A DNA stretch of 64,000 nt from a virus. Positions 1-64,000 of the stretch are shown one piece after another. How positions within the stretch are numbered: position 1 is the first letter of the stretch; every line of letters starts with the position of its first letter. The notes below the pieces were generated by a model that saw only the letters and a list, made by a program, of their open reading frames with translations, had not been told where the DNA came from and searched no databases. Made by a program: the position numbers and the translations under genes. The stretch is from the IMG/VR virus record IMGVR_UViG_3300042472_000301, positions 1 through 64,000 of that record; one strand, 5' to 3'.

Positions 1-635
1 AACGAGCGCCAGTAAAACGGGTTGCAAAACCTGCGCCTGTTAGGAACCCAGACTTTACAGACAAGGTTGTTGATCTTATCAAGTGGGTAGACAGTCCGTT
101 CAAGCTGATCTCGGTGGTGCTGATTGCGTTTGTTGCGTTTGCTGGATACTTTGCTTGGGACTCACGGCAGGTCATTCTTGGTGCTATCAGTAGCAAAAAG
201 ACGGAGCTAAAAGAGCCGTTGTTGGTTGAGGCTATTGCCAAGTCTTTGATTTACGACCTAAGCGCAGATGTGGTGATTGTGAATTCAGTCAATCTTCAAT
301 CAAACAGCCGCACAACCATCTTGGCAATGAGTAATCAGGGTCGAGAGAAGTCGCTTGAAGGTGCGGTCAATGCCTTGTTTACAAGCACACCTGAACACAA
401 TCGTGCAGTCATCACAATGTTTCAAGGCGAAGTAGCTTGCGATCCGTTTGTGCCAAGCTCAAAGCTCGGTGAGTACGCTGTCAAGCATGGCGTGACGTAT
501 ATGTGCCGTGGTTCCGTGCCGCCCGAACAAGGCAGGTTTGTAGGCTACATAGCGGTGGGTTTTAAGATACCGCCCAAAGACATTTCACAAGCGAAGACTC
601 GCATTAACTTAGCAAGCACGGAGATGAGTAAATGA
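1..635 (+). CDS. Membrane-anchored lysis-cassette protein (5' end cut by window edge)
   Basis: The frame is open from base 3 and has no start inside the window; the nearly identical copy at 37899 shows that only about 28 bases of the gene are missing. It has one hydrophobic segment close to the N-terminus (VVLIAFVAFAGYFAWDS) followed by about 150 residues of probable periplasmic domain. By eye it is about 94% identical to the copy at 37899-38561. It overlaps the endolysin start by 4 bases (ATGA). Its place between holin and endolysin suggests a role in lysis, such as a spanin or lysis regulator, but I do not recognise the family and no lipobox is visible. Confidence 0.8.
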   Translation, partial: RAPVKRVAKPAPVRNPDFTDKVVDLIKWVDSPFKLISVVLIAFVAFAGYFAWDSRQVILGAISSKKTELKEPLLVEAIAKSLIYDLSADVVIVNSVNLQSNSRTTILAMSNQGREKSLEGAVNALFTSTPEHNRAVITMFQGEVACDPFVPSSKLGEYAVKHGVTYMCRGSVPPEQGRFVGYIAVGFKIPPKDISQAKTRINLASTEMSK

Positions 636-1168
636 TTAGCAATTGGGATCAAGCGTTTAAGCAGATGCTCGCCTCAGAGGGCGGCTTCACAGACGATGAG
701 CGTGATAACGGAAACAAGCTACCAGATGGGCGTAAAGGCTCAACCATGCTTGGCGTGACTCAGTTCAACTGGGAGCAACACGTTGGGCATCAAGTGTCGC
801 ACGACGATATGCGCGCGTTAACCCCCGCCAACGTGGAACCTTTGTACAAGAAAAAATATTGGGATGTTGTTCGCGCGGACGAATTGCCTAGCGGTATTGA
901 TTACATGGTGTTTGACATGGGCGTGAACGCAGGCCCTGGGCGCGCTATCAAACTATTGCAAACTGCGGTAGGCGTGACGCCTGATGGTGGCTTCGGCCCG
1001 ATGACAATGGCAGCTGTGCAAGCGATCGATCCTGTTGAACTGATTGAAAAGTTCAGCCAAGCCAAGGAAGACTTTTACCGCTCCCTTGGCACCTTTGCAA
1101 CTTTTGGCAAAGGCTGGCTAAACCGCGTGGCTGACGTTAAAGTCAAAGCCAATTCAATGCTCGCATAA
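632..1168 (+). CDS. Endolysin, glycoside hydrolase family 108 type
   Basis: A 178-residue muramidase-type endolysin that would cleave the glycan strands of peptidoglycan at the end of infection. The N-terminal SEGGFTDDERDNGNK motif carries the likely catalytic glutamate (E16), as in GH108 enzymes, and PDGGFGPMTMAA in the C-terminal half looks like the PG_binding_3 region found in this family. There is no signal peptide, so export would depend on the holin at 37483. It starts by ATGA overlap with the upstream membrane protein. A second copy, about 83% identical by eye, lies at 38558. Confidence 0.93.
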   Translation: MISNWDQAFKQMLASEGGFTDDERDNGNKLPDGRKGSTMLGVTQFNWEQHVGHQVSHDDMRALTPANVEPLYKKKYWDVVRADELPSGIDYMVFDMGVNAGPGRAIKLLQTAVGVTPDGGFGPMTMAAVQAIDPVELIEKFSQAKEDFYRSLGTFATFGKGWLNRVADVKVKANSMLA

Positions 1169-2748: not shown

Positions 2749-4067
2749 TTCAAAGCCTCTAAAGCTATATCAGACACGGCGCGCTTGTCATGCAACGCCG
2801 CCCAAATTTTTTCATCAACGGTATTGTTAGTGAGCAACACATAGACCCACACGTCATTCTTCTGACCCGACCGATGGATACGCCCTACGGTTTGCTCAAA
2901 AAGTTCAAGGCTCCAAGGCAATGACAGAAAGACCATCCGGCAACCGCCGTGTTGCAGGTTAAGCCCGTGCCCTGCTGACTTGGGGTGGACAAGTAGCAAC
3001 TCCACTTTTCCCGCATTCCAGCGGTCAATGGCGTCTTTGTCGTCGAGAGTGACGGCGTGGGGGTACTGGCGCTTGAGTTCGGCAAGTTCTTCTCGGTAGG
3101 TGTAGGCGATGATGGTGTTAGCACGTTGGTTCTCCTCTAGTAAATCGTCAAGCAAATCAAACTTGTGACGGCTTAACCAAATGGCGGTCTGTAAAGTATC
3201 AAACTTACCTGAGCGCATACTTGCTGTTGTGCTAGTGTGATAGATAAAACCTGACGCCATCTGTTGCAGTTTGCCCGTCACAACCGCCGCGTTGATTGCC
3301 TCAATGTGTGTATCGCCAAACAACAACACAAAGTCTTGTTTCATTTTCTTATAACTCACCATGTCCATGTCACAGCGCATCTCAACGGTGTGGCAAGGCG
3401 GCAGCTTGTCGGCGTACTCACCTGCCTCAAGCAGATAGGTCGCGGGCTTGATACGCTCCATCACCGATTGCAACGCCTTGGGGCGTGGCGCCCATTCGCC
3501 GTACTCTTTGTTCATCAGCACAAAGTACGTTTGCATAAACGCGCCTTTGCTGCGCCCAAGCAACGATTGGTCAACGATCTTGCATTGCCCAAACACGTCT
3601 TCTAAACCGTTACTTGTGAACGATCCGGTCAGGCCCCAGCGCACGGTCATAGGTTCAATGACTTTAAGCAACGCTTTGAAGCGCGCGCCCGAGGGGTTCT
3701 TGAGCCGTGTCAGTTCGTCAAACACAATGCCGTCAAAGTCCAACTCTTGCTCGGCTAACCATTGCAGATTGTCGTAGTTGGTCACAACGACGTTAGCGTT
3801 AGATTGAAGCGCAGCTAAACGCCGTGCGGGTGTGCCACCGGCAAACGCCACACTAAGTTTGAACCCCCACTTGACAGCCTCGGCTGGCCATACGCTCATG
3901 GCAACCCGTTTGGGTGCTAGGACAAGCCAACGGCGCACCGGTGAGGCTTGCATAGCGGTCAACGTAATCGCCGTCTTACCGGCGCCCACAGGGGCCAACA
4001 CCATAGCGCGGTCGTGTGTGCCGAGAAAAGCGGCGGCTTCAGTTTGATAAGGTCTTAATGTAAGCAT
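2745..4067 (-). CDS. SNF2/DEAD-type helicase
   Basis: A 440-residue superfamily 2 helicase or translocase. Motif I is APVGAGKTA (residues 25-33), motif II is the variant FDEL near residue 116, motif III is GLTGSF near 146, and motif VI is QTVGRIHRSGQ near 400, which is typical of phage SNF2-like proteins. It probably acts in replication or recombination together with the VRR-NUC nuclease encoded just upstream, whose frame it overlaps by 29 bases. Phage B has the same nuclease-helicase pair at 62968-64000 on the other strand. Confidence 0.9.
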   Translation of the reverse strand: MLTLRPYQTEAAAFLGTHDRAMVLAPVGAGKTAITLTAMQASPVRRWLVLAPKRVAMSVWPAEAVKWGFKLSVAFAGGTPARRLAALQSNANVVVTNYDNLQWLAEQELDFDGIVFDELTRLKNPSGARFKALLKVIEPMTVRWGLTGSFTSNGLEDVFGQCKIVDQSLLGRSKGAFMQTYFVLMNKEYGEWAPRPKALQSVMERIKPATYLLEAGEYADKLPPCHTVEMRCDMDMVSYKKMKQDFVLLFGDTHIEAINAAVVTGKLQQMASGFIYHTSTTASMRSGKFDTLQTAIWLSRHKFDLLDDLLEENQRANTIIAYTYREELAELKRQYPHAVTLDDKDAIDRWNAGKVELLLVHPKSAGHGLNLQHGGCRMVFLSLPWSLELFEQTVGRIHRSGQKNDVWVYVLLTNNTVDEKIWAALHDKRAVSDIALEALK

Positions 4068-4317
4068 CTACTTGTTCCTTAGTCCATAGTGTTGTGTAGT
4101 TTTGATTTAATCTCGCCATGTCGGCGGCAAAAATTTTTTGTAATTCTGACAATCGACCCCCTTTAGTCTTGAGCTCTACAAACCATGTCGCCCCGTCAGG
4201 GAAACACGCTATACGATCGGCAACGCCACGGTGGCTAGGTGACGTAAACTTATACGTCTTGCCGCCCGCGCGTTCGACTGCCCATTTAAAATAATTTTCG
4301 ATTTCTGATTCTTTCAT
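4039..4317 (-). CDS. VRR-NUC domain nuclease
   Basis: A 92-residue single-domain PD-(D/E)XK nuclease. The core is GVADRIACFPD, then FVELKTKGGRLSELQK with the E-x-K catalytic pair, giving the VRR-NUC pattern. The family includes structure-specific nucleases that process replication or recombination intermediates. It is the first gene of the leftward operon, transcribed from 4318-4381, and pairs with the helicase downstream. Confidence 0.88.
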   Translation of the reverse strand: MKESEIENYFKWAVERAGGKTYKFTSPSHRGVADRIACFPDGATWFVELKTKGGRLSELQKIFAADMARLNQNYTTLWTKEQVDAYIKTLSN

Positions 4318-4381
4318 GTAAAAAAGTATAGCACAGGCAAAAAATCGTGTACAATTAAATTTCTAAACAGGAGATTACACT
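4318..4381. promoter_or_regulatory. Divergent promoter region
   Basis: This 64-bp AT-rich spacer lies between two divergent operons. Rightward, TACAAT at 4350-4355 is a plausible -10 element, with AGGAG (4369-4373) as ribosome-binding site of the DUF2800 gene. Leftward, TATACT (complement of 4325-4330) is a plausible -10. No convincing -35 is visible for either, so phage or host activators may be needed. Confidence 0.5.
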
Positions 4382-5470
4382 ATGCTTCACTCAACTATCG
4401 TAGGTGGCTCGACCGCCAAACGCGTTATCGCTTGCCCAGCCTCAATCGACTTGGTTGCTAAGATGCCGCCAAAGCCCTCTAGCAAGTACGCTGACGAAGG
4501 CACACTCTTACACGACGCCATTAGCCAAATCCTTGACTGCAAGGCGACACCCGAGTCTGTGATCGGTATGGTTCACGAAGGCATTACGCTTACACAGGAG
4601 TTATACGATGACAAGATTGCTGTGGCGTTGTCGGCGTTGGATGAAATTGATCCCGATAAGCAGATGGAATTTGCTGTGGAAAGCAGCGTCAACTTTGGTG
4701 ATCTTTTGCCTGGCGTGTTTGGAAGTGCTGATCTACTTGGCCGGATCGGCAAAAAGGCAATTGTTTTGGATTGGAAATTCGGCAATGGCGTGGCTGTCGA
4801 GGCAACTGAGAACGAACAGGGTATGTTCTACGCTGCTGCTGCCATGCGTACGCCGGAAACTCAATGGGTGTTTGAGGATGTTGAAGAAATTGAAATCATT
4901 ATTGTTCAACCGCCGATGGTGAAGCGTTGGGTGACAACGCCCGAGCGTATCGCTAAGTTTGAGTTTGACCTGATAGCTGCGGTCAACGGCCCACGCACTA
5001 AGCTAGAGTCCGGTGAGCATTGCCGGTGGTGTGCAGCCAAGCCCACTTGCCCGTTGGTTACGGGTGCTGTTGACCGTGCGCTCAAGACCGCGCTTGTGCG
5101 CCTTGACGCTGACAAGATAAGTGAGTACCTCACCCAAGCCGATGAACTCGAATCGTGGATCGACGCCGTGCGCGTACTGGCCTACGATATGTTAGAGAAC
5201 AACGTGCGTGTGCCAGGATACAAACTGGTCGCCAAGCGCGGCACACGTCAATGGGTGAACGATGAAGCGCCGGTAAAATTATTAGGTGACAAAGCGTATG
5301 AGAGTAAGTTAATCTCTGTAGCCCAAGCCGAAAAAATTATTGGCAAAAAGAACTTTCCGTCTGACGTAGCAGTAAGCGTTAGCTCGGGCAGTACGTTGGC
5401 AGCGGAATCTGATCCACGGCCAGCGGTGATCGACCTAGGTAAGCAACTCGCTAACCTAAAACTACTCTAA
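4382..5470 (+). CDS. DUF2800 PD-(D/E)XK nuclease with Fe-S-type cysteines
   Basis: A 362-residue Cas4/RecB-like nuclease. The catalytic core is GSADLLGR (about residue 115) followed by VLDWKFGNG (about 128-136) and the helix motif NEQGMFYA (about 142). Cysteines in CRWCAAKPTC (about 213-222) are spaced as in Fe-S cluster members of this superfamily. Homologues sit in phage replication modules beside ssDNA-binding proteins and polymerases, as here. Phage B has a diverged homologue at 58529-59626. Confidence 0.88.
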   Translation: MLHSTIVGGSTAKRVIACPASIDLVAKMPPKPSSKYADEGTLLHDAISQILDCKATPESVIGMVHEGITLTQELYDDKIAVALSALDEIDPDKQMEFAVESSVNFGDLLPGVFGSADLLGRIGKKAIVLDWKFGNGVAVEATENEQGMFYAAAAMRTPETQWVFEDVEEIEIIIVQPPMVKRWVTTPERIAKFEFDLIAAVNGPRTKLESGEHCRWCAAKPTCPLVTGAVDRALKTALVRLDADKISEYLTQADELESWIDAVRVLAYDMLENNVRVPGYKLVAKRGTRQWVNDEAPVKLLGDKAYESKLISVAQAEKIIGKKNFPSDVAVSVSSGSTLAAESDPRPAVIDLGKQLANLKLL

Positions 5471-7181: not shown

Positions 7182-9063
7182 CTTTGAAACCCGTAGCCAC
7201 TGTGACCTTAAACGTCACGGTGTCTACAACTACGCCCAAGACGGTACAACTGAAGTGCTGTGTATGTCCTACGCGTTCGATGACGAAGACGTGGCCACTT
7301 GGACGTCCGGCCCATTCCCCCAACGTGTACGCGATCATAAGGGTTTGATCTACGCCCACAACGCAGCCTTTGAGCGCTTAATCTTTTGGTACGTCTTACA
7401 GATCAATTTCAAATTAGAGCAGTTCTATTGCACCGCAACACAAGCGCGCGCAAACTGTGCACCAGGGAGCCTTGAAGATGTGGGCCGGTTCGCCGGTGCA
7501 AGCATGAAGAAGGATTACCGTGGCGCACAGCTTATCCGTGCGCTATGTGTACCGCCGTTTAAAGACGACCCTGCGCTGATGCTTGAAATGGTGCAATACT
7601 GTGAGCAAGACGTGCGCGCCATGCGCGCGGTTAGCCAAAGCCTACGCCCCTTATCTAATGAGGAGTTATTTGATTATCATGTCAACGAAAAAATCAACGA
7701 CCGAGGTGTACTGGTGGACGTGCCTCTTGCCAGCGCAGCCATCTCTTACGCGGCCATTGAACTCGCGGACATACAGTCCATTGTCAGAACCGTCACCAAT
7801 GGCGCGATCACGTCAGTCCGCTCGCCGAAGATGCGCGAATGGGTTAAAGAAAGACTAAGCCCCGAACAACTTAAACTAATGGAAGTGGAAGATGGAAAAT
7901 ATTCAATCGACAAGCGCGTACGCGCAAACTTACTTGCGGTCGAAGACCTACCGCCCGACGTTGCCGAGGTTATCCAATGTGCCGATGATCTCTGGGCGTC
8001 GTCGGTCGCAAAGTTCTCACGCTTACGCGACTTGGCAGATGTGGAGGACAATCGCGTCCGTGGAGCCTTTGTGTTCGCCGGAGGATCGGCTACTGGTCGT
8101 GCGTCTAGCTATGGCGCGCAAGTACACAACTTCACACGCAAGTGCGCCAAAGCGCCCGAGTCTGTTAGAGAGAGCATGGTTCTCAGACAGCCCATCGTTC
8201 CCCGTTTTGGCAAAAGAGTTACTGACGTTCTAAAGGGTATGTTACGCCCCGCGATCATACCCGCCAAGGGTAAGTCCTTGGTGGTCGCCGACTGGAGTCA
8301 GATCGAAGCGCGGATGACCCCGTGGTTGTCAGGGCGCGGCGATGACGTGCTAGACGTGTTCCGGTCGGGCCGCGATATTTATGTGCGTGAGGCGGCGGCG
8401 ATGTACAAGATACCCGAGTCCGAAGTCACCCTTGACCAAAGGCAGATCGGTAAGGTCGCAATCCTCGCTTGCGGGTTCGGTGGTGGCATTGGCGCGTTCT
8501 CTGCGATGGGTCGCGCCTACGGATTGACCATGACCGAGTCGGACGCGCAGCGTACCGTTGATGCCTGGCGCCGTGCAAACCAATGGGCCGTCAGGTATTG
8601 GCAAGAGTTGGAAACTGGTTACATGATTGCTATGCGTAACAAGGGCAAAGAAATCGTGGCGGGTAGGGTAACCTACCTGTATGACGGGCAGCATCTATGG
8701 TACGCTTTACCCTCGGGTCGCATCCTCTGTTACCCCTACGCCAAACTTGAAGAAGATGGAATTTCATACGCCAAAGCAGCATGGAAGCCCGCCGCCGACG
8801 CTAAAGAGTGGCCGCGCGCGCGATTATGGCGTGGCTTGGCCTGTGAGAACATCACCCAAGCCTGTGCGAACGACGTACTACGTTACGCTCTCCGAGCCCT
8901 TGACGACGTTGTACTCCACGTTCACGACGAAATTGTTATTGAAACCGATCAGCCCGAAACCGTCACCGAGCGGTTAAGGCAAGTTATGTGTACGCCGCCC
9001 CCGTGGGCGCAAGGTCTGCCACTAGACGCCGAGATTCAAACAATGACTCGGTACGGCAAGTAA
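7147..9063 (+). CDS. DNA polymerase, family A (Pol I type)
   Basis: A 638-residue replicative polymerase. The 3'-5' exonuclease has MLWVDFETRS (Exo I, near residue 10), AHNAAFE (Exo II) and YCEQDVRAM (Exo III). Polymerase motif A is VADWSQIEARM (about 379-389), motif B is RQIGKVAILACGFGG (about 430), and motif C is LHVHDEIVIE (about 589-598). No 5' nuclease domain is present. I use GTG at 7147 because AGGGG lies just upstream; ATG at 7168 would also start right at the exonuclease domain. Confidence 0.95.
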   Translation: MAKSVSNMLWVDFETRSHCDLKRHGVYNYAQDGTTEVLCMSYAFDDEDVATWTSGPFPQRVRDHKGLIYAHNAAFERLIFWYVLQINFKLEQFYCTATQARANCAPGSLEDVGRFAGASMKKDYRGAQLIRALCVPPFKDDPALMLEMVQYCEQDVRAMRAVSQSLRPLSNEELFDYHVNEKINDRGVLVDVPLASAAISYAAIELADIQSIVRTVTNGAITSVRSPKMREWVKERLSPEQLKLMEVEDGKYSIDKRVRANLLAVEDLPPDVAEVIQCADDLWASSVAKFSRLRDLADVEDNRVRGAFVFAGGSATGRASSYGAQVHNFTRKCAKAPESVRESMVLRQPIVPRFGKRVTDVLKGMLRPAIIPAKGKSLVVADWSQIEARMTPWLSGRGDDVLDVFRSGRDIYVREAAAMYKIPESEVTLDQRQIGKVAILACGFGGGIGAFSAMGRAYGLTMTESDAQRTVDAWRRANQWAVRYWQELETGYMIAMRNKGKEIVAGRVTYLYDGQHLWYALPSGRILCYPYAKLEEDGISYAKAAWKPAADAKEWPRARLWRGLACENITQACANDVLRYALRALDDVVLHVHDEIVIETDQPETVTERLRQVMCTPPPWAQGLPLDAEIQTMTRYGK

Positions 9064-13883: not shown

Positions 13884-14061
13884 CTATTTATAGCATAAAG
13901 CTCACAAAAGCTCACAAAATGTAGGGCACTTCAGGGTAATGAAAGGGCAACGCAAAAGGGCGCGAAGTGCTTTCAGAAAATGCCTTATAAATTATCGGTT
14001 TATGTGCTTTGTAGGGTAATGAGGGTTATTTATTAGATTAGATAGTAAGATTTTAAATATA

Positions 14062-14077
14062 CTGTATATACGTACAG
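14062..14077. promoter_or_regulatory. LexA-like SOS box
   Basis: CTGTATATACGTACAG matches the CTGT-N8-ACAG consensus of the LexA operator in enterobacteria and betaproteobacteria, including the flanking TA on the left. The overlapping TATACT (14058-14063) could be the -10 element of a rightward promoter, so binding of host LexA could repress it. No LexA or repressor gene is seen in the window. Confidence 0.5.
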
Positions 14078-14138
14078 CAGTATATATGTCGGCGCAGTTG
14101 GCACGCGCACAACGTAGCAGGCCACTGGACTTTGTGGG

Positions 14139-14165
14139 CATTGCCTACATTGCCTACATTGCCTA
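14139..14165. repeat. Triple 9-bp direct repeat
   Basis: Three head-to-tail copies of CATTGCCTA, with a related ATTGCCTAC at 14423-14431 immediately before the terminase start codon. It may be a protein-binding site, for example for the small terminase subunit. Confidence 0.6.
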
Positions 14166-14192
14166 CAAGTTAAACTTAGTATGCACATAATC

Positions 14193-14310
14193 CTAAGACT
14201 TAGTGAGTACCAGGTGCTAAGATTTAGTGAGTATTTGGCACTAAGACTTAGTGAGCTTGACTAAGACTTAGTGAGCTTGTTGGTTGTCCAACAACCTAAG
14301 ACTTAGTGAG
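14193..14310. repeat. Five iterons CTAAGACTTAGTGAG
   Basis: The 15-bp unit occurs at 14193, 14217 (one mismatch), 14241, 14261 and 14296, at intervals of 24, 24, 20 and 35 bp. Each unit contains the odd palindrome CTAAG-A-CTTAG. A small hairpin GTTGG-TTGT-CCAAC lies between units 4 and 5 (14279-14292). Iterons of this kind mark replication origins or packaging-initiation sites; the small terminase gene begins 120 bp downstream. Confidence 0.8.
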
Positions 14311-37899: not shown

Positions 37900-38561
37900 T
37901 GGTAACGGCTAAAAAGCCTGCGGTTAAACGAGCGCCAGTAAAACGGGTTGCAAAACCTGCGCCTGTTAGGAACCCAGACTTTACAGACAAGGTTGTTGAT
38001 CTTATCAAGTGGGTAGACAGTCCGTTCAAGCTGATCTCGGTGGTGCTGATTGCCTTTGTTGCGTTTGCTGGGTACTTTGCTTGGGACTCACGGCAAGTCA
38101 TTTTGAATGCAATCAGTAGCAAAAAGACAGAGCTAAAAGAGCCGTTGTTGGTTGAGGCTATTGCCAAGTCTTTGATCTACGATCTAAGCGCGGATGTGGT
38201 GATTGTGAATTCAGTCAATCTTCAATCAAACAGTCGCACAACCATTTTGGCAATGAGCAATCAGGGGCGTGAAAAGTCTCTCGAAGGCGCAATCAACGCT
38301 TTGTTTACCAGTTCGCCTGAACGCAACCGTGCAGTCATCACGATGTTCCAAGGAGAGGTGCATTGCGAGACGTTTGTGCCAAGCTCAAAGATTGGAGAGT
38401 ACGTTGTTAAACATGGCGTGACGTATATGTGTCGTGGCTCTGTACCGCCAGAACAAGGCAGGTTTGTAGGCTACATTGCGGTAGGCTTTAAGATACCGCC
38501 TAAGGATATTATTCAAGCGAAGACTCGCATTAACTTAGCAAGCACGGAGATGAGTAAATGA
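37899..38561 (+). CDS. Membrane-anchored lysis-cassette protein (A/B hybrid at the join)
   Basis: A 220-residue protein: a basic, proline-rich cytoplasmic N-terminus (KKPAVKRAPVKRVAKPAPVR), one membrane helix (about 45-62) and a periplasmic domain. The first 28 bases belong to the phage A circle, the next 127 are identical in A and B, and the rest is the B version. It is therefore probably an artificial but near-natural hybrid. Its 3' end overlaps the B endolysin by ATGA. Confidence 0.8.
   Translation: MVTAKKPAVKRAPVKRVAKPAPVRNPDFTDKVVDLIKWVDSPFKLISVVLIAFVAFAGYFAWDSRQVILNAISSKKTELKEPLLVEAIAKSLIYDLSADVVIVNSVNLQSNSRTTILAMSNQGREKSLEGAINALFTSSPERNRAVITMFQGEVHCETFVPSSKIGEYVVKHGVTYMCRGSVPPEQGRFVGYIAVGFKIPPKDIIQAKTRINLASTEMSK
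37927..38053 (+). repeat. 127-bp exact repeat of window bases 1-127 (assembly junction)
   Basis: Every base of 1-127 matches 37927-38053, and the first mismatch is the 128th base (G in A, C in B). The repeat starts exactly at the first base of the window. This is the form expected when a contig passes twice through one 127-mer graph vertex. A true duplication ending exactly at the contig edge is less likely. Confidence 0.9.
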
Positions 38562-39094
38562 TTGATAACTGGAAACTAGCTTTTGAACAGATGCTCAAAA
38601 GTGAAGGTGGCTTCACAGACGACGAGCGTGATGACGGCAACAAGTTACCAGATGGGCGTAAAGGCTCAACCATGCTTGGCGTGACTCAATTTAATTGGGA
38701 ACAGCACGTTGGGCATCAGGTCACCCACGACGATATGCGTAAGCTCACTCCTGCGGATGTAGAACCCCTGTACAAGAAAAAGTATTGGGACGTTGTGCGG
38801 GCTGACGAATTGCCTTCTGGGATTGATTACCTAGTCTTTGATATGGGTGTGAACGCCGGTCCGGGTCGCTCTATCAAAATCATGCAAACCGCTTTGGGCG
38901 TACCTGCTGACGGTGGTTTTGGTCCGATGACAATGGCTGCTGTCTTAGCTGCTGACCCTGTTGTGTTAATTGAGAAGTTCAGTCAAGAGAAAGAGGCGTT
39001 TTACCGTGGTCTTGAAAAGTTCACTGTATACGGTGAAGGCTGGCTTAATCGTGTTGCAGCAGTTAAGGTCAAGGCAAGCTCGATGCTCGGCTAA
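38558..39094 (+). CDS. Endolysin, glycoside hydrolase family 108 type (phage B copy)
   Basis: A 178-residue homologue of the endolysin at 632, with the same KSEGGFTDDERDDGNK catalytic region (E16) and DGGFGPMTMAA C-terminal motif. Differences gather in the last 50 residues. Divergence from the A copy is larger than in the membrane protein before it, so similarity falls with distance from the shared 127 bp. Confidence 0.93.
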   Translation: MIDNWKLAFEQMLKSEGGFTDDERDDGNKLPDGRKGSTMLGVTQFNWEQHVGHQVTHDDMRKLTPADVEPLYKKKYWDVVRADELPSGIDYLVFDMGVNAGPGRSIKIMQTALGVPADGGFGPMTMAAVLAADPVVLIEKFSQEKEAFYRGLEKFTVYGEGWLNRVAAVKVKASSMLG

Positions 39095-59993: not shown

Positions 59994-60019
59994 AGTAGCA
60001 CGGATTTTAACTGTGTTAA
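59994..60019 (-). promoter_or_regulatory. Palindromic operator over a leftward promoter
   Basis: TTAAC-TGT-GTTAA (60007-60019) is a perfect 5-bp-arm palindrome. Read leftward, TTAACA (complement of 60014-60019) could serve as -35, with ATAGTA at its -10 distance (TACTAT on the leftward strand). The site lies between the Cro-like gene and the replication operon it faces. Confidence 0.58.
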
Positions 60020-60045
60020 TATTTTTGCTCTTTCGGAGGTTTTGT

Positions 60046-60228
60046 ATGTTCAAGTTCAGTAAGTATTATGCCTCGCTGACTGCGCAGCAAAAGCGTGATC
60101 TTGCGCTTGGCGTGCACAGCAGCATGAGCTATCTTGGAATGATCGCGCACGGGAAGCGCAAACCCTCGGAGCGCTTCGCAGCAGCGCTGAGTTTGGCCGC
60201 GGGTAAGAAATTCAACTACAAGGTTTGA
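60046..60228 (+). CDS. Cro-like regulator
   Basis: A 60-residue protein starting at ATG 60046 behind GGAGG. LTAQQKRDLALGVHSSMSYL, then IAHGKRKPSERFAAALSL fits a small helix-turn-helix repressor of the Cro type. The palindrome at 60007-60019 lies just before it and a related one sits at 55943-55955, so it may control both leftward promoters and its own expression. Confidence 0.72.
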   Translation: MFKFSKYYASLTAQQKRDLALGVHSSMSYLGMIAHGKRKPSERFAAALSLAAGKKFNYKV

Positions 60229-60229
60229 T

Positions 60230-62713
60230 ATGACAGACACGATAACGTTGCTTAAAACGATGAACGGTCGCAGGATGACCAAGTTATGGAAACAAGACGG
60301 TACGATCGATGGCTACGAGGACGCCAAGCACTTTAAGATGCGCCGCGAGCAGGTCGCAAGTTTAGACGAGCTCGGCGCGATGCTCAAGAGGATTGAGGGT
60401 AATCCCGACGTGTGCCTGATACGCGGGGCTTACGTGGGTGACGAGCTCGCTGAGAAGTCAGAGTACTCGGGCTACGTGCGTCGTGCTCTGGTTAACTTTA
60501 CTGACCAGCCGCTGCACGCGGTCATGTTTGACGTTGATAACTTCGAGCACGAGGGCGCGCCCGAGGAGGCGATCGACGCGTGGATCGAGACCACGCTGCC
60601 TGCGTTCGCTGGTGTGCGCTACTGGTGGCAGCTCTCGTCGTCTGCAGGGCGCACACCCGGTGTGCTCAAGGCGCACGTGTGGTTCTGGTTGGCCGAGCCT
60701 CGCACGAGCGCTCAGCTACGTGCGTGGGGTATCGGCATCGCAGGCCTTGATCACTCGGTCTTTAACCCAGTGCAGGCGCACTACACGGCCGCGCCTGTGT
60801 TCGAGGCCGGTGTGGCTGACCCGGTCGGTGCTCGCTCAGGCATGTCGTCTGGCTGGTTTGACTCGGTCGCAATCGACGTGTCGGACGTGAAGGTGCCTGA
60901 GTACGAGGGGTCGTACACGATGAGTGACCCTCGCGAGAAGCCCGGCGTGGTGGGCGCGTTCTGTCGCGCGTTTAGCGTGGAGGAGGTGATCGTGCGCTGG
61001 CTCCCGGATAAGTTCCGCTTCCAGATGGATGACAACGAGCGCCGGCTCACCTACAAGGCCGGTGGCGGCTCAGTGGGTGGTGCCTTTATCAGCGACGACC
61101 GTATGCACGTGGTCAACAAGCACGCGACCGACCCGTGTCTGGGGCGCGCGGTTAACGTCTTCGATTTGGTGCGGGTGCACAAGTTCGGGCACCTCGATGA
61201 GGGTGCTGACCCGCTCGATCTGGTGCAGATACAGTCACACCCCTCGCAGCTGGCCATGCTCAAGATGTGCGAGGGTTTGCCAGAAATCGCCGCGGAAAAG
61301 ACAGCGGCCGTCGCCAGTTGGTCGGAGCGCATCGCGGCGGCCGCTTTAACAGATTTGGAGGCGCTCACGGCAGAGATCGGTTTGGACGTTGGGCAGGTTG
61401 AGCAGGCGGCACTCGTGCAGGCGCTTAGGCGTCGCTTTGCGGAGCTGGGGGCGAACATGCCAGTTGCCGACATCCGGCGCATGATGCGCCCACGGCGTGC
61501 GCAGGTGGCGCTGCCTGACATGAACGCCGAGGGCGCGCCCCAGCAGACGATTGAGAACGTGGCAGCGGTCTGCCAGAACGCGGGGATAGTCGTGCGCTAC
61601 AACTGCATCAACAAGCACGACGAGATCCTCGTGCCCGGCGCGGGGTGGACGATGGACAACGCGGCCGAGGCCTCGCTCACGGTGATCCGCTCGATGTGCC
61701 ACAAGTCCGAGATCAGGACGCAGTACCTGAAGAGCATCGTCACGACCATCGCCGACATGAACGTCTACAACCCGGTGGTCGAGTGGGTGAGTAGCAAGCC
61801 GTGGGACGGGATGAGCCGGCTGCAGAGCTGGTACGACACGCTGGTGGAGGTGACCGAGGCCATCGAGCGCGGGCGCAAGGAGCTGCTCATGCGCAAGTGG
61901 GCGCTCTCGGCGATTGCCGCGGCCTACTCGCCCGACGGGGTGATGGCTCGCGGCGTGTTGGTGCTCCAAGGCGCGCAGTACATCGGCAAGACCCGGTGGC
62001 TGACTTCGCTTGTGCCGGCGAACTTGAACCTAGTCAACACCGGCAAGAGCCTGAACGTGCACGACAAGGACTCGCTCATGAACGTGCTCTCGGGCTGGCT
62101 GGCTGAGCTGGGTGAGCTTGATGCGACGTTTAAGAAGAGCGACATCGCGGCGCTCAAGGCGTTCCTCACCCAGACGGTGGACGAGATACGCAGACCCTAT
62201 GCCGCGGCGTCTTCGCGCTACGCCCGGCGCACGGTGTTCGCGGCCTCGGTGAACGACGAGACGTTCTTGGGTGACCCCACGGGCAACAGTCGCTTCTGGG
62301 TGATCCCGGTGAGTGCTGTCGTGCACGACCACTCGATCGACATGCAGCAGCTCTGGGCGGAGGTGCTGGCGCTCTGGAAGGCTGGCGAGGTGCACTACCT
62401 GAGCCAGTCGGAGATGGGCGAGGTGAGCGTGCATAACAACCAGTTTGAGCAGTCCGACCCGATTGTGGAGCTCATAACGGACGGTTTGGCGTGGGCGGAT
62501 TTCAGCGAAACGCGGTGTAAGTGGATGAGCGCCTCAGAGATTCTGAGGTGGCTGGACGTGAGGAGTCCCAGTAAAAGGGACACCAGTTTGGCGGGTGCGG
62601 CGGTGCTGAAGTTGAACGGTGGGCTCAAAAAACGGCTCTCAACGGGCCGTTATCTGGCTGTTCCGCTGAGCAAGGCGATGGGGGTTGTGGACGTTGGGGG
62701 CGAGGTATGGTGA
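60230..62713 (+). CDS. VapE-like primase-helicase
   Basis: An 827-residue protein. The N-terminal AEP-type primase has AVMFDVDNFEHEG (about 97-109, DxD-like) and KAHVWFWL (about 145-152). The VapE/D5-type ATPase has Walker A LQGAQYIGKTRWL (about 580-592), Walker B WLAELGELDA (about 621), and YARRTVFAASVNDETFLG (about 660-677), ending GNSRFWVI. The gene follows the Cro-like gene at one base distance and precedes the iteron cluster, consistent with origin opening. Confidence 0.9.
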   Translation: MTDTITLLKTMNGRRMTKLWKQDGTIDGYEDAKHFKMRREQVASLDELGAMLKRIEGNPDVCLIRGAYVGDELAEKSEYSGYVRRALVNFTDQPLHAVMFDVDNFEHEGAPEEAIDAWIETTLPAFAGVRYWWQLSSSAGRTPGVLKAHVWFWLAEPRTSAQLRAWGIGIAGLDHSVFNPVQAHYTAAPVFEAGVADPVGARSGMSSGWFDSVAIDVSDVKVPEYEGSYTMSDPREKPGVVGAFCRAFSVEEVIVRWLPDKFRFQMDDNERRLTYKAGGGSVGGAFISDDRMHVVNKHATDPCLGRAVNVFDLVRVHKFGHLDEGADPLDLVQIQSHPSQLAMLKMCEGLPEIAAEKTAAVASWSERIAAAALTDLEALTAEIGLDVGQVEQAALVQALRRRFAELGANMPVADIRRMMRPRRAQVALPDMNAEGAPQQTIENVAAVCQNAGIVVRYNCINKHDEILVPGAGWTMDNAAEASLTVIRSMCHKSEIRTQYLKSIVTTIADMNVYNPVVEWVSSKPWDGMSRLQSWYDTLVEVTEAIERGRKELLMRKWALSAIAAAYSPDGVMARGVLVLQGAQYIGKTRWLTSLVPANLNLVNTGKSLNVHDKDSLMNVLSGWLAELGELDATFKKSDIAALKAFLTQTVDEIRRPYAAASSRYARRTVFAASVNDETFLGDPTGNSRFWVIPVSAVVHDHSIDMQQLWAEVLALWKAGEVHYLSQSEMGEVSVHNNQFEQSDPIVELITDGLAWADFSETRCKWMSASEILRWLDVRSPSKRDTSLAGAAVLKLNGGLKKRLSTGRYLAVPLSKAMGVVDVGGEVW

Positions 62714-62978
62714 CATGGCTAAAAACTGTTGGCGTATGTCACCGTATGGGTGACATGGTGACATGCGGTGTAAAAAGTAGGCAAAAAAGGGCTTTCATGT
62801 CACTATACGGTGACATGAAAGGGGGGTAGTGACATTAGGTGTCATCATAGGGAACATGTCACCTATGTCACTATATTTATATATATTTTATATAGGGTAA
62901 CTGTGATGGTAGGTGGTAACACACTACATACTTCCTATATAGAGTTAGCAAAGCTGGTCATAGTGTCATGGGTGACAT
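62710..62978. repeat. Iteron cluster GTGACAT/ATGTCAC with AT-rich block, probable origin
   Basis: The 7-mer GTGACAT occurs at 62710, 62750, 62758, 62810, 62829 and 62972, and its inverse ATGTCAC at 62736, 62797, 62856 and 62865: ten exact copies in 269 bp. Two sets form palindromes (62736-62756 and 62797-62816). A/T-only sequence lies at 62870-62898 (TATATTTATATATATTTTAT). Such iterons beside an unwinding element next to a primase-helicase gene indicate a replication origin; a repressor-binding array is the alternative. Confidence 0.8.
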
Positions 62979-63372
62979 GGAAAAGGACGTAGAAAAGCGT
63001 TTAGTGGGGGGTATAAAGCGGCTTGGTGGGCAGGCGGTGAAGTTCGTCAGCCCGGCCTCGGCGGGGTGGCCTGATCGCTTGGTTTTGATGCCGGGCGGGC
63101 GGGTGACGTTCATCGAGTTGAAGACAGGCACAGGAAAACTTAGTGAGTTGCAAAAGTACCGGCTGAAGGTTTTGGGTGACTTGGGGTTTGATGCCCGGGT
63201 CCTGTATGGGCACGATGAGGTTAAAGGATTCTTAGATGAAACTGCACGATTATCAGTTGAGGATGGCCGAGCACATGGTGGAGCACCGCGGGGCGATGTG
63301 TTGGTCGGAGGTGGGGCTGGGCAAGACCGCAGCGACCCTGCAGGCGCTTCGGATGATGAAGGCAAGGGGTGA
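62968..63372 (+). CDS. VRR-NUC nuclease with overprinted C-terminal tail
   Basis: A 134-residue frame. The first 90 residues are a VRR-NUC domain (SPASAGWPDRLVLMPGGRVT, FIELKTGTGKLSELQKYRLK), like the phage A protein at 4039. The last 45 residues, rich in Gly, Arg, Asp and Ala, lie over the start of the helicase gene in another frame and have no nuclease character. ATG 62977 is an alternative start. Confidence 0.8.
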   Translation: MGDMEKDVEKRLVGGIKRLGGQAVKFVSPASAGWPDRLVLMPGGRVTFIELKTGTGKLSELQKYRLKVLGDLGFDARVLYGHDEVKGFLDETARLSVEDGRAHGGAPRGDVLVGGGAGQDRSDPAGASDDEGKG

Positions 63373-64000
63373 GCCTATCCAAGTGCTGATCGTGGCTCCT
63401 AAGCGTGTTTCTGAGCACGTGTGGGAGGCTGAGCGCGATCTTTGGGCACCCAAGATGCCGATGCTGGTGATTAAGGGCAACCAAGCGCAGCGACGACGTG
63501 CGCTCAGGACACCGTGCGCGGTCAAGGTGATCGGGCGAGACAACGTGAAGTGGCTGGTGGACGAGCTCAAGGATCGTTGGCCGTTCAATGTTTTGGTGGT
63601 GGACGAGAGCCAAGGGTTCAAGAGCCCGTCCACGGCGCGTTTTAAGGCCCTTAGGCGCGTTAAGTTTGACCGGGTGATACTCCTGAGTGCCACACCGGCC
63701 TCAGAGGGCTTGCTGGGGCTCTGGAGCCAGTGCTACTTGGCTGACAGGGGCGAGAGGCTGGGCAGGACCTACACGGGCTACATCAACGCGTTCTTTGTGG
63801 GCGATTACATGGGCTGGAACCTCGCACCGCGGCCCAACGCAGAGAAGGAGATACACGCAAGGGTTAAGGACATCACGGTGGCCATGCGGGCTGAGGACTA
63901 CCTCGACCTGCCTGAGCGCATCAACAGCAACACGGTGGTCGAGATGCTGCCCGGTGAGCTCAAGGTCTACGAGCAGCTCAGACGCGACGCGCTGTTGCCC
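63236..64000 (+). CDS. SNF2/DEAD-type helicase, 3' end beyond the window
   Basis: The frame from ATG 63236 is open to the window edge (255 codons). Motif I is WSEVGLGKTAATL (about 22-34), motif Ia VLIVAPKRVSEHVW, motif II VLVVDESQGFK (about 119-129) and motif III LLSATPASEG (about 146-155). Motifs V and VI lie outside. AAAGGA precedes the ATG. It overlaps the VRR-NUC frame by 137 bases, far more than the 29-base overlap of the pair in phage A. Confidence 0.88.
   Translation, partial: MKLHDYQLRMAEHMVEHRGAMCWSEVGLGKTAATLQALRMMKARGEPIQVLIVAPKRVSEHVWEAERDLWAPKMPMLVIKGNQAQRRRALRTPCAVKVIGRDNVKWLVDELKDRWPFNVLVVDESQGFKSPSTARFKALRRVKFDRVILLSATPASEGLLGLWSQCYLADRGERLGRTYTGYINAFFVGDYMGWNLAPRPNAEKEIHARVKDITVAMRAEDYLDLPERINSNTVVEMLPGELKVYEQLRRDALLP

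Follow-up and report, generated by a model that had tools for sequence, protein, structure and literature searches.

A GTGACAT iteron array at the 3' end of vapE as the probable replication origin of a tailed phage, with counterparts in distant VapE phages

Introduction

In Streptococcus thermophilus phage Sfi21 the origin of replication reportedly lies downstream of the primase gene. The Rep protein of SaPIs and the Cch2 protein of SCCmec elements bind, through a C-terminal domain, iterons located directly downstream of their own genes (PMC7581432), and PICI origins, located 3' of rep, consist of two iteron sets with an AT-rich region between them (PMC6092414). The opposite orientation of the SaPI repeats is held to load two hexamers head-to-head (PMC9894130).

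Here we describe a comparable locus in an environmental tailed phage, phage B, contained in a 64-kb window (the whole stretch of 64,000 nucleotides that was analysed) of a 92.9-kb viral record. An earlier note on the window had suggested an origin of this phage between its primase-helicase and nuclease genes, which are vapE on one side and a VRR_NUC gene on the other. That assignment is the best-supported reading of the locus, though not proven, and comparison with relatives has added to it a likely initiator and an inverted-pair geometry.

Genome organization

In the record (G000) phage genomes follow one another as a chain. Its nucleotides 1–1080 are 85.6% identical to 37927–39006, a second record of identical sequence (G004) begins at position 37927 of the first, and a third copy of that region is found near the 57.5-kb position of G004. 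Phage B therefore starts at approximately 37.9 kb and is approximately 57.5 kb long. The repeated segment bears an endolysin gene, and its three 85%-identical copies (window 1–1080 and 37927–39006; 3545–4623 of locus L105) are situated at successive phage genome starts in G000 and G004. The chain could represent tandem prophages, concatemers or a product of assembly. A smaller repeat cluster (TCACTAA, ACTAAGACTTAGTGAG) is present in phage A at window positions 13981–14279, ahead of the gene for the large terminase (14841), and is a candidate for either an origin or a packaging site there.

The genes surrounding the array are listed in Table 1. The product of vapE comprises a primase-like N-terminus, a VapE/SF3-like helicase and a predicted C-terminal winged helix. 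Upstream, the other strand encodes a DNA polymerase together with an Enc34-type ssDNA-binding protein and a DUF2800 exonuclease. Some 4.3 kb downstream of the array is the gene for the large terminase (7279–8889 of locus L003; record 67279), and phage B also possesses virion structural genes and a tail fibre. The small ORF that precedes vapE showed no match in Pfam, PHROG or NCBIfam. For the VRR_NUC gene, the ATG at 62977–62979 is the likelier start, since three relatives (L008, L011 and L012) do not have the upstream ATG at 62968 in frame. Direct DNA matches were absent from cultured phages, and bacterial genomes yielded no close relatives, only helicase matches at 39–43%.

Table 1. Features of the vapE–VRR_NUC region of phage B, in window coordinates
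Feature	Coordinates	Strand	Remarks
Small ORF	60013..60228	+	71 aa; upstream of vapE; regulator-like look; rival binder
vapE, primase-helicase	60230..62713	+	827 aa; proposed initiator; Pfam VapE-like_dom 7e-48; PHROG primase/helicase families
Iteron 1	62710..62716	+	exact GTGACAT; contains vapE stop TGA 62711–62713
Iteron 2	62736..62742	-	exact; left arm of spaced palindrome 1
Iteron 3	62750..62756	+	exact; right arm of spaced palindrome 1
Iteron 4	62758..62764	+	exact; tandem with iteron 3
Iteron 5	62797..62803	-	exact; left arm of 12-bp perfect palindrome (62792–62821)
Iteron 6	62810..62816	+	exact; right arm of 12-bp palindrome
Iteron 7	62829..62835	+	exact
Degenerate iteron GTGTCAT	62841..62847	-	one mismatch
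Proposed origin core	62855..62979	.	inverted repeat with 20-bp arms holding two iterons each, around 85 bp beginning with the A/T run
Iteron 8	62856..62862	-	exact; left core pair, outer member
Iteron 9	62865..62871	-	exact; left core pair, inner member, 9 bp from iteron 8
Pure A/T run	62872..62894	.	23 nt, from sequence; proposed melting site
Degenerate iteron GTGTCAT	62963..62969	+	one mismatch; orientation as iteron 10; outer site, right core arm
Iteron 10	62972..62978	+	exact; overlaps likely VRR_NUC start codon 62977–62979
VRR_NUC nuclease gene	62977..63372	+	Pfam VRR_NUC 2.7e-6; PHROG endonuclease 9e-25
SNF2-type helicase gene	63236..64000 (to 64534 in record)	+	Pfam SNF2-rel_dom 7e-16

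The iteron array

The region 62710–62978 contains, as the earlier note had counted, ten exact copies of GTGACAT in 269 bp, six on the plus and four on the minus strand, a density far beyond chance when compared with shuffled sequence. The window as a whole holds 20 copies versus approximately seven in shuffles (none of 100 reached 20), and half of these are in the array. No other 7-mer cluster in the 92.9-kb record is as dense, the best 360-bp stretch elsewhere having five copies of any 7-mer; outside the array the phage B part of the record has only three isolated copies of GTGACAT, and none occurs from 34727 to 62709, which includes the vapE promoter region near 60 kb. Two degenerate copies (TGTCAT) near 62842 and 62964 bring the array to about 12 sites.

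The two spaced palindromes previously noticed are real, the second having perfect 12-bp arms, and the terminal copies do enter the adjoining genes, the first one containing the stop codon of vapE and the last one reaching into the likely ATG of VRR_NUC. The block of pure A/T, which had been given as 29 bases, is a run of 23. Nine exact sites lie to the left of this run, with one exact and one degenerate site to its right. The arms of the proposed core (62855–62874 and 62960–62979) are inverted and 90% complementary. Inside the core, after the A/T run, there is a conserved long segment capable of forming a hairpin (TATATAGGG ... CCTATATA; window 62887–62947), the conservation of which equals that of the iterons.

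Cumulative GC-skew, which had been suggested as a check, does show a minimum in the phage B part, at nucleotide 59514, approximately 3.2 kb upstream of the array, a distance that speaks against the assignment. As a test this is weak: gene orientation also diverges near 60 kb, where the minimum falls, so coding strand and origin are inseparable in it, and GC-skew was consequently dropped as a means of locating the origin.

Conservation in close relatives

Searches of IMG/VR with VapE recovered 12 loci with 92–100% protein identity (L005–L016), of which one is the same phage (L014) and one ends before the array (L013). All ten remaining, distinct relatives read through the region and retain 8–10 exact copies, so that the array, for which a search near VapE-like genes had been proposed, is conserved in every syntenic close relative. 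In four of them (L010, L011, L012 and L016) the flanks have changed, the protein tail of VapE reading GGDM... versus GGEVW, and the first copy is found elsewhere within the last vapE codons. That the site is kept in spite of a changed position and changed codons points to selection on the site itself. Mean column identity is 0.93 in the motifs versus 0.86 in the other upstream spacer and 0.96 in the segment 62898–62968; this segment equals or exceeds the motifs in conservation, so the iterons do not stand out by that measure alone, and something besides them matters there.

Arrays downstream of vapE in distant relatives

The VapE proteins of these loci, of further viral contigs and of 19 cultured phage or satellite records were clustered at 85% identity, giving 46 clusters. 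The region from -40 to +320 relative to each vapE stop was screened for any repeated 7-mer on either strand, a count being taken as significant when at most two of 200 dinucleotide shuffles reached it. Significant arrays of different motifs were found 3' of vapE in 22 of these 46 non-redundant clusters, the same count being rare or absent elsewhere in the locus, and isolated phages of Enterococcus, Paenibacillus, Corynebacterium and Staphylococcus are among the carriers. Many of these distant arrays begin within about 10 bp of the vapE stop. Their motifs are lineage-specific and include AGGGTAATA, AATGCCC, CAGTGCA, CGTCACC, AGGGTCA and AGGGTAG, as well as GTATCCA (phiFL4A), CTGCAAC (AJG77), GGGACAA (Lederberg), ATGCAAC (Staphylococcus phage 3A), GTAACAA (APSE-6) and AAAACTA (satellite Javan608). 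In phiFL4A, AJG77, Lederberg and 3A, vapE is followed by a gap of 285–340 bp with the array, then by VRR_NUC and a helicase. Locus L090, in which the repeat that satisfied the shuffle test lies within a downstream coding gene, was excluded.

The other 24 clusters (e.g. Mano, Persinger and Jilinvirus ep3) have no significant array at -40 to +320, and VapE is therefore not always accompanied by such an origin. Of the 22 clusters with an array, 14 have a VRR_NUC gene no more than 1.5 kb downstream, versus 5 of the 24 without; Mano, Murka, Persinger, Arya, ep3, Mica and PPpW-3, in which no VRR_NUC follows vapE, have no array there. In Acinetobacter phage Alexa (L089), AGTGCAACC repeats are present at approximately 4470–4560, about 280 bp downstream of vapE and past a small gene, which suggests that an inserted gene can separate the array from vapE. 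Another distant relative (L017) has a 14-copy GGTCTAC/CGTAGAC cluster at approximately 18300, away from vapE and 5.6 kb past it.

The geometry of the 22 arrays was analysed with sites allowed one mismatch. Neighbouring sites of the same orientation peak at a distance of 9 bp, with 27 such pairs versus two in opposite orientation. In 19 of the 22 arrays the two sites on either side of the 30-bp inter-site block with the lowest GC point in opposite directions (P=0.0004 for random orientation), and they are commonly about 90–115 bp apart. A stricter test with exact sites and the largest gap gave a weaker orientation result (16 of 22, P=0.026). The common layout begins with tandem sites, for which 9 bp is a frequent spacing, and continues with an A/T-rich block and then inverted sites approximately 100 bp away. 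CTATATA or GTATATA steps are seen in the A/T blocks of 8–9 of 21 array cores versus about 0.5 expected in shuffles.

VapE as the proposed initiator

The protein scores 163 bits against the VapE-like domain (PF05272; gathering cutoff 25), and its N-terminal part matches phage primase families in PHROG; by eye, FDVDNF and LKAHVWFW in this N-terminus appear to resemble archaeo-eukaryotic primase motifs. An AlphaFold2 model covers residues 408–827 (pLDDT 86). The C-terminal domain is predicted to have the order H-E-H-H-E-E, that of a winged helix (model residues 337–405, pLDDT approximately 78–92). The best Foldseek match is PriRep1 with dsDNA (7pds, TM 0.68–0.71), the SaPI5 primase-helicase (7ola) being lower among the matches. 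VapE is also related to 7pds by sequence (phmmer 1.2e-20, profile 2e-36).

Across 16 array-bearing clusters, motif similarity correlates with identity of the VapE C-terminus (r 0.54), and with helicase-core identity removed the partial Mantel r is 0.34 (p 0.009, n 16), the consensus motifs having been written by hand. These sequence comparisons give modest support to the view that the C-terminus of VapE reads the iterons.

Origin function and alternative explanations

The array is very probably the replication origin of phage B, at which VapE, encoded by the adjoining upstream gene, would bind the sites and load as hexamers. What is read from sequence here comprises the array with its conservation and position, the inverted-pair geometry, the counterparts in other phages with VapE and the predicted fold; VapE binding, double-hexamer loading and origin firing we infer from relatives, and melting with them. 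The C-terminal winged helix of VapE would bind the GTGACAT sites, and the two site sets of opposite orientation flanking the A/T-rich block would lead to the loading of two helicase hexamers face to face. These would melt the A/T block and initiate replication in both directions; primers would be made by the fused primase-like N-terminus, and primase and polymerase together would start the two forks. Protein on the last site would mask the start of VRR_NUC, and occupancy of the origin may as a side effect be coupled to VRR_NUC expression.

The overlap of the last site with the likely VRR_NUC start and of the first with the vapE stop, together with a promoter-like match on the minus strand within the array, would also suit a multi-site operator, controlling the VRR_NUC–helicase operon through a transcription factor which could be the product of the small upstream ORF or VapE acting as autoregulator only. 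As an explanation of the array this is improbable: the vapE promoter region has no copy and the isolated copies elsewhere in phage B number only three, from phage to phage the arrays go with vapE and its C-terminus, an A/T-rich block between inverted site sets is not an operator feature, and twelve sites over 270 bp exceed typical operators. An operator role is, moreover, compatible with origin function, and the two can coexist.

That the palindromes act instead as RNA, in the form of a structured leader, a terminator or a regulatory RNA between the two genes, is very improbable. The RNA of the spacer does fold better than 200 of 200 shuffles (z -7.4), and a terminator-like hairpin is present on the minus strand at 62792–62821, but good folding is built into any array of one motif in both orientations. 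Rfam gave no match, the alignment contains little covariation (a double change in 5 of 97 pairs; covariation term -2.2 of -80.7 kcal/mol), and no hairpin forms from the 9-bp tandems of same orientation, which are the arrangement most often seen in the arrays. Repeat clusters may likewise serve for packaging or partition, and the array could in principle be a site of this kind rather than an origin. With the large terminase gene some 4.3 kb away, and with arrays following vapE both in phages and in a satellite of unlike gene content, we attach the lowest probability of all to such a role.

Beyond the origin of phage B, the chances seem to us evenly balanced that a single portable initiator-origin cassette (9-bp tandems, an A/T block and, at a distance of about 100 bp, inverted tandems, the whole lying 3' of the initiator gene) is distributed across phages of Proteobacteria, Firmicutes and Actinobacteria and also across satellites. 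Winged helix and iteron letters would change together, the C-terminus of VapE would predict the iteron, and satellites could have acquired the cassette from phages. The vapE-carrying tailed phages, some of which are in culture, represent matched initiator-origin pairs with which to ask how a winged helix sets origin specificity, and the same pairs bear on whether satellites took their replicon from phages and on DNA melting by a bacterial self-loading helicase. For unannotated phage genomes a simple rule follows: the origin should be sought at the 3' end of vapE, especially if VRR_NUC is next.

Comparison with known systems

The array in the window shows every sequence feature of a SaPI/PICI-type origin (SaPIbov1, SaPI1, EfCIV583 and EcCICFT073; PMC6092414): it is located directly 3' of the initiator helicase gene, it has two iteron sets of opposite orientation around an AT-rich region, and the helicase is related (7pds, 7ola). 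It differs in that the motif is another one, the array enters both neighbouring genes and is followed by VRR_NUC and an SNF2 helicase, and the carrier, a tailed phage and not a satellite, encodes a polymerase, an ssDNA-binding protein and a terminase of its own. Classification of phage B itself as a PICI was rejected: PICIs are satellites without a full set of structural and packaging genes of their own, and phage B has a large terminase and virion structural genes as well as a tail fibre and a DNA polymerase.

The putative origin of SCCmec Cch2 (PMC7581432) likewise involves a self-loading helicase with a C-terminal domain that binds short repeats directly downstream of the gene, although only three AAGTG iterons are reported, the polymerase-type primase is separate and the element is an integrated island. 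The origin of SV40 T-antigen is similar in principle, inverted recognition repeats directing two head-to-head hexamers (PMC9894130), but the element is unrelated and the DNA-binding domain of T-antigen is on the N-terminal side, as opposed to the predicted C-terminal position in VapE. Also close are the arrays of phiFL4A, AJG77, Lederberg and 3A (L094–L097), which have the gene order, the 9-bp tandems and the inverted brackets of the phage B array and differ in the letters of the motif. In the literature searched we found no publication describing these four arrays as origins, which is no proof that none exists. The origin type is already known; judging from the sequences compared here, a layout once said to be confined to PICI replicons is common in VapE phages.
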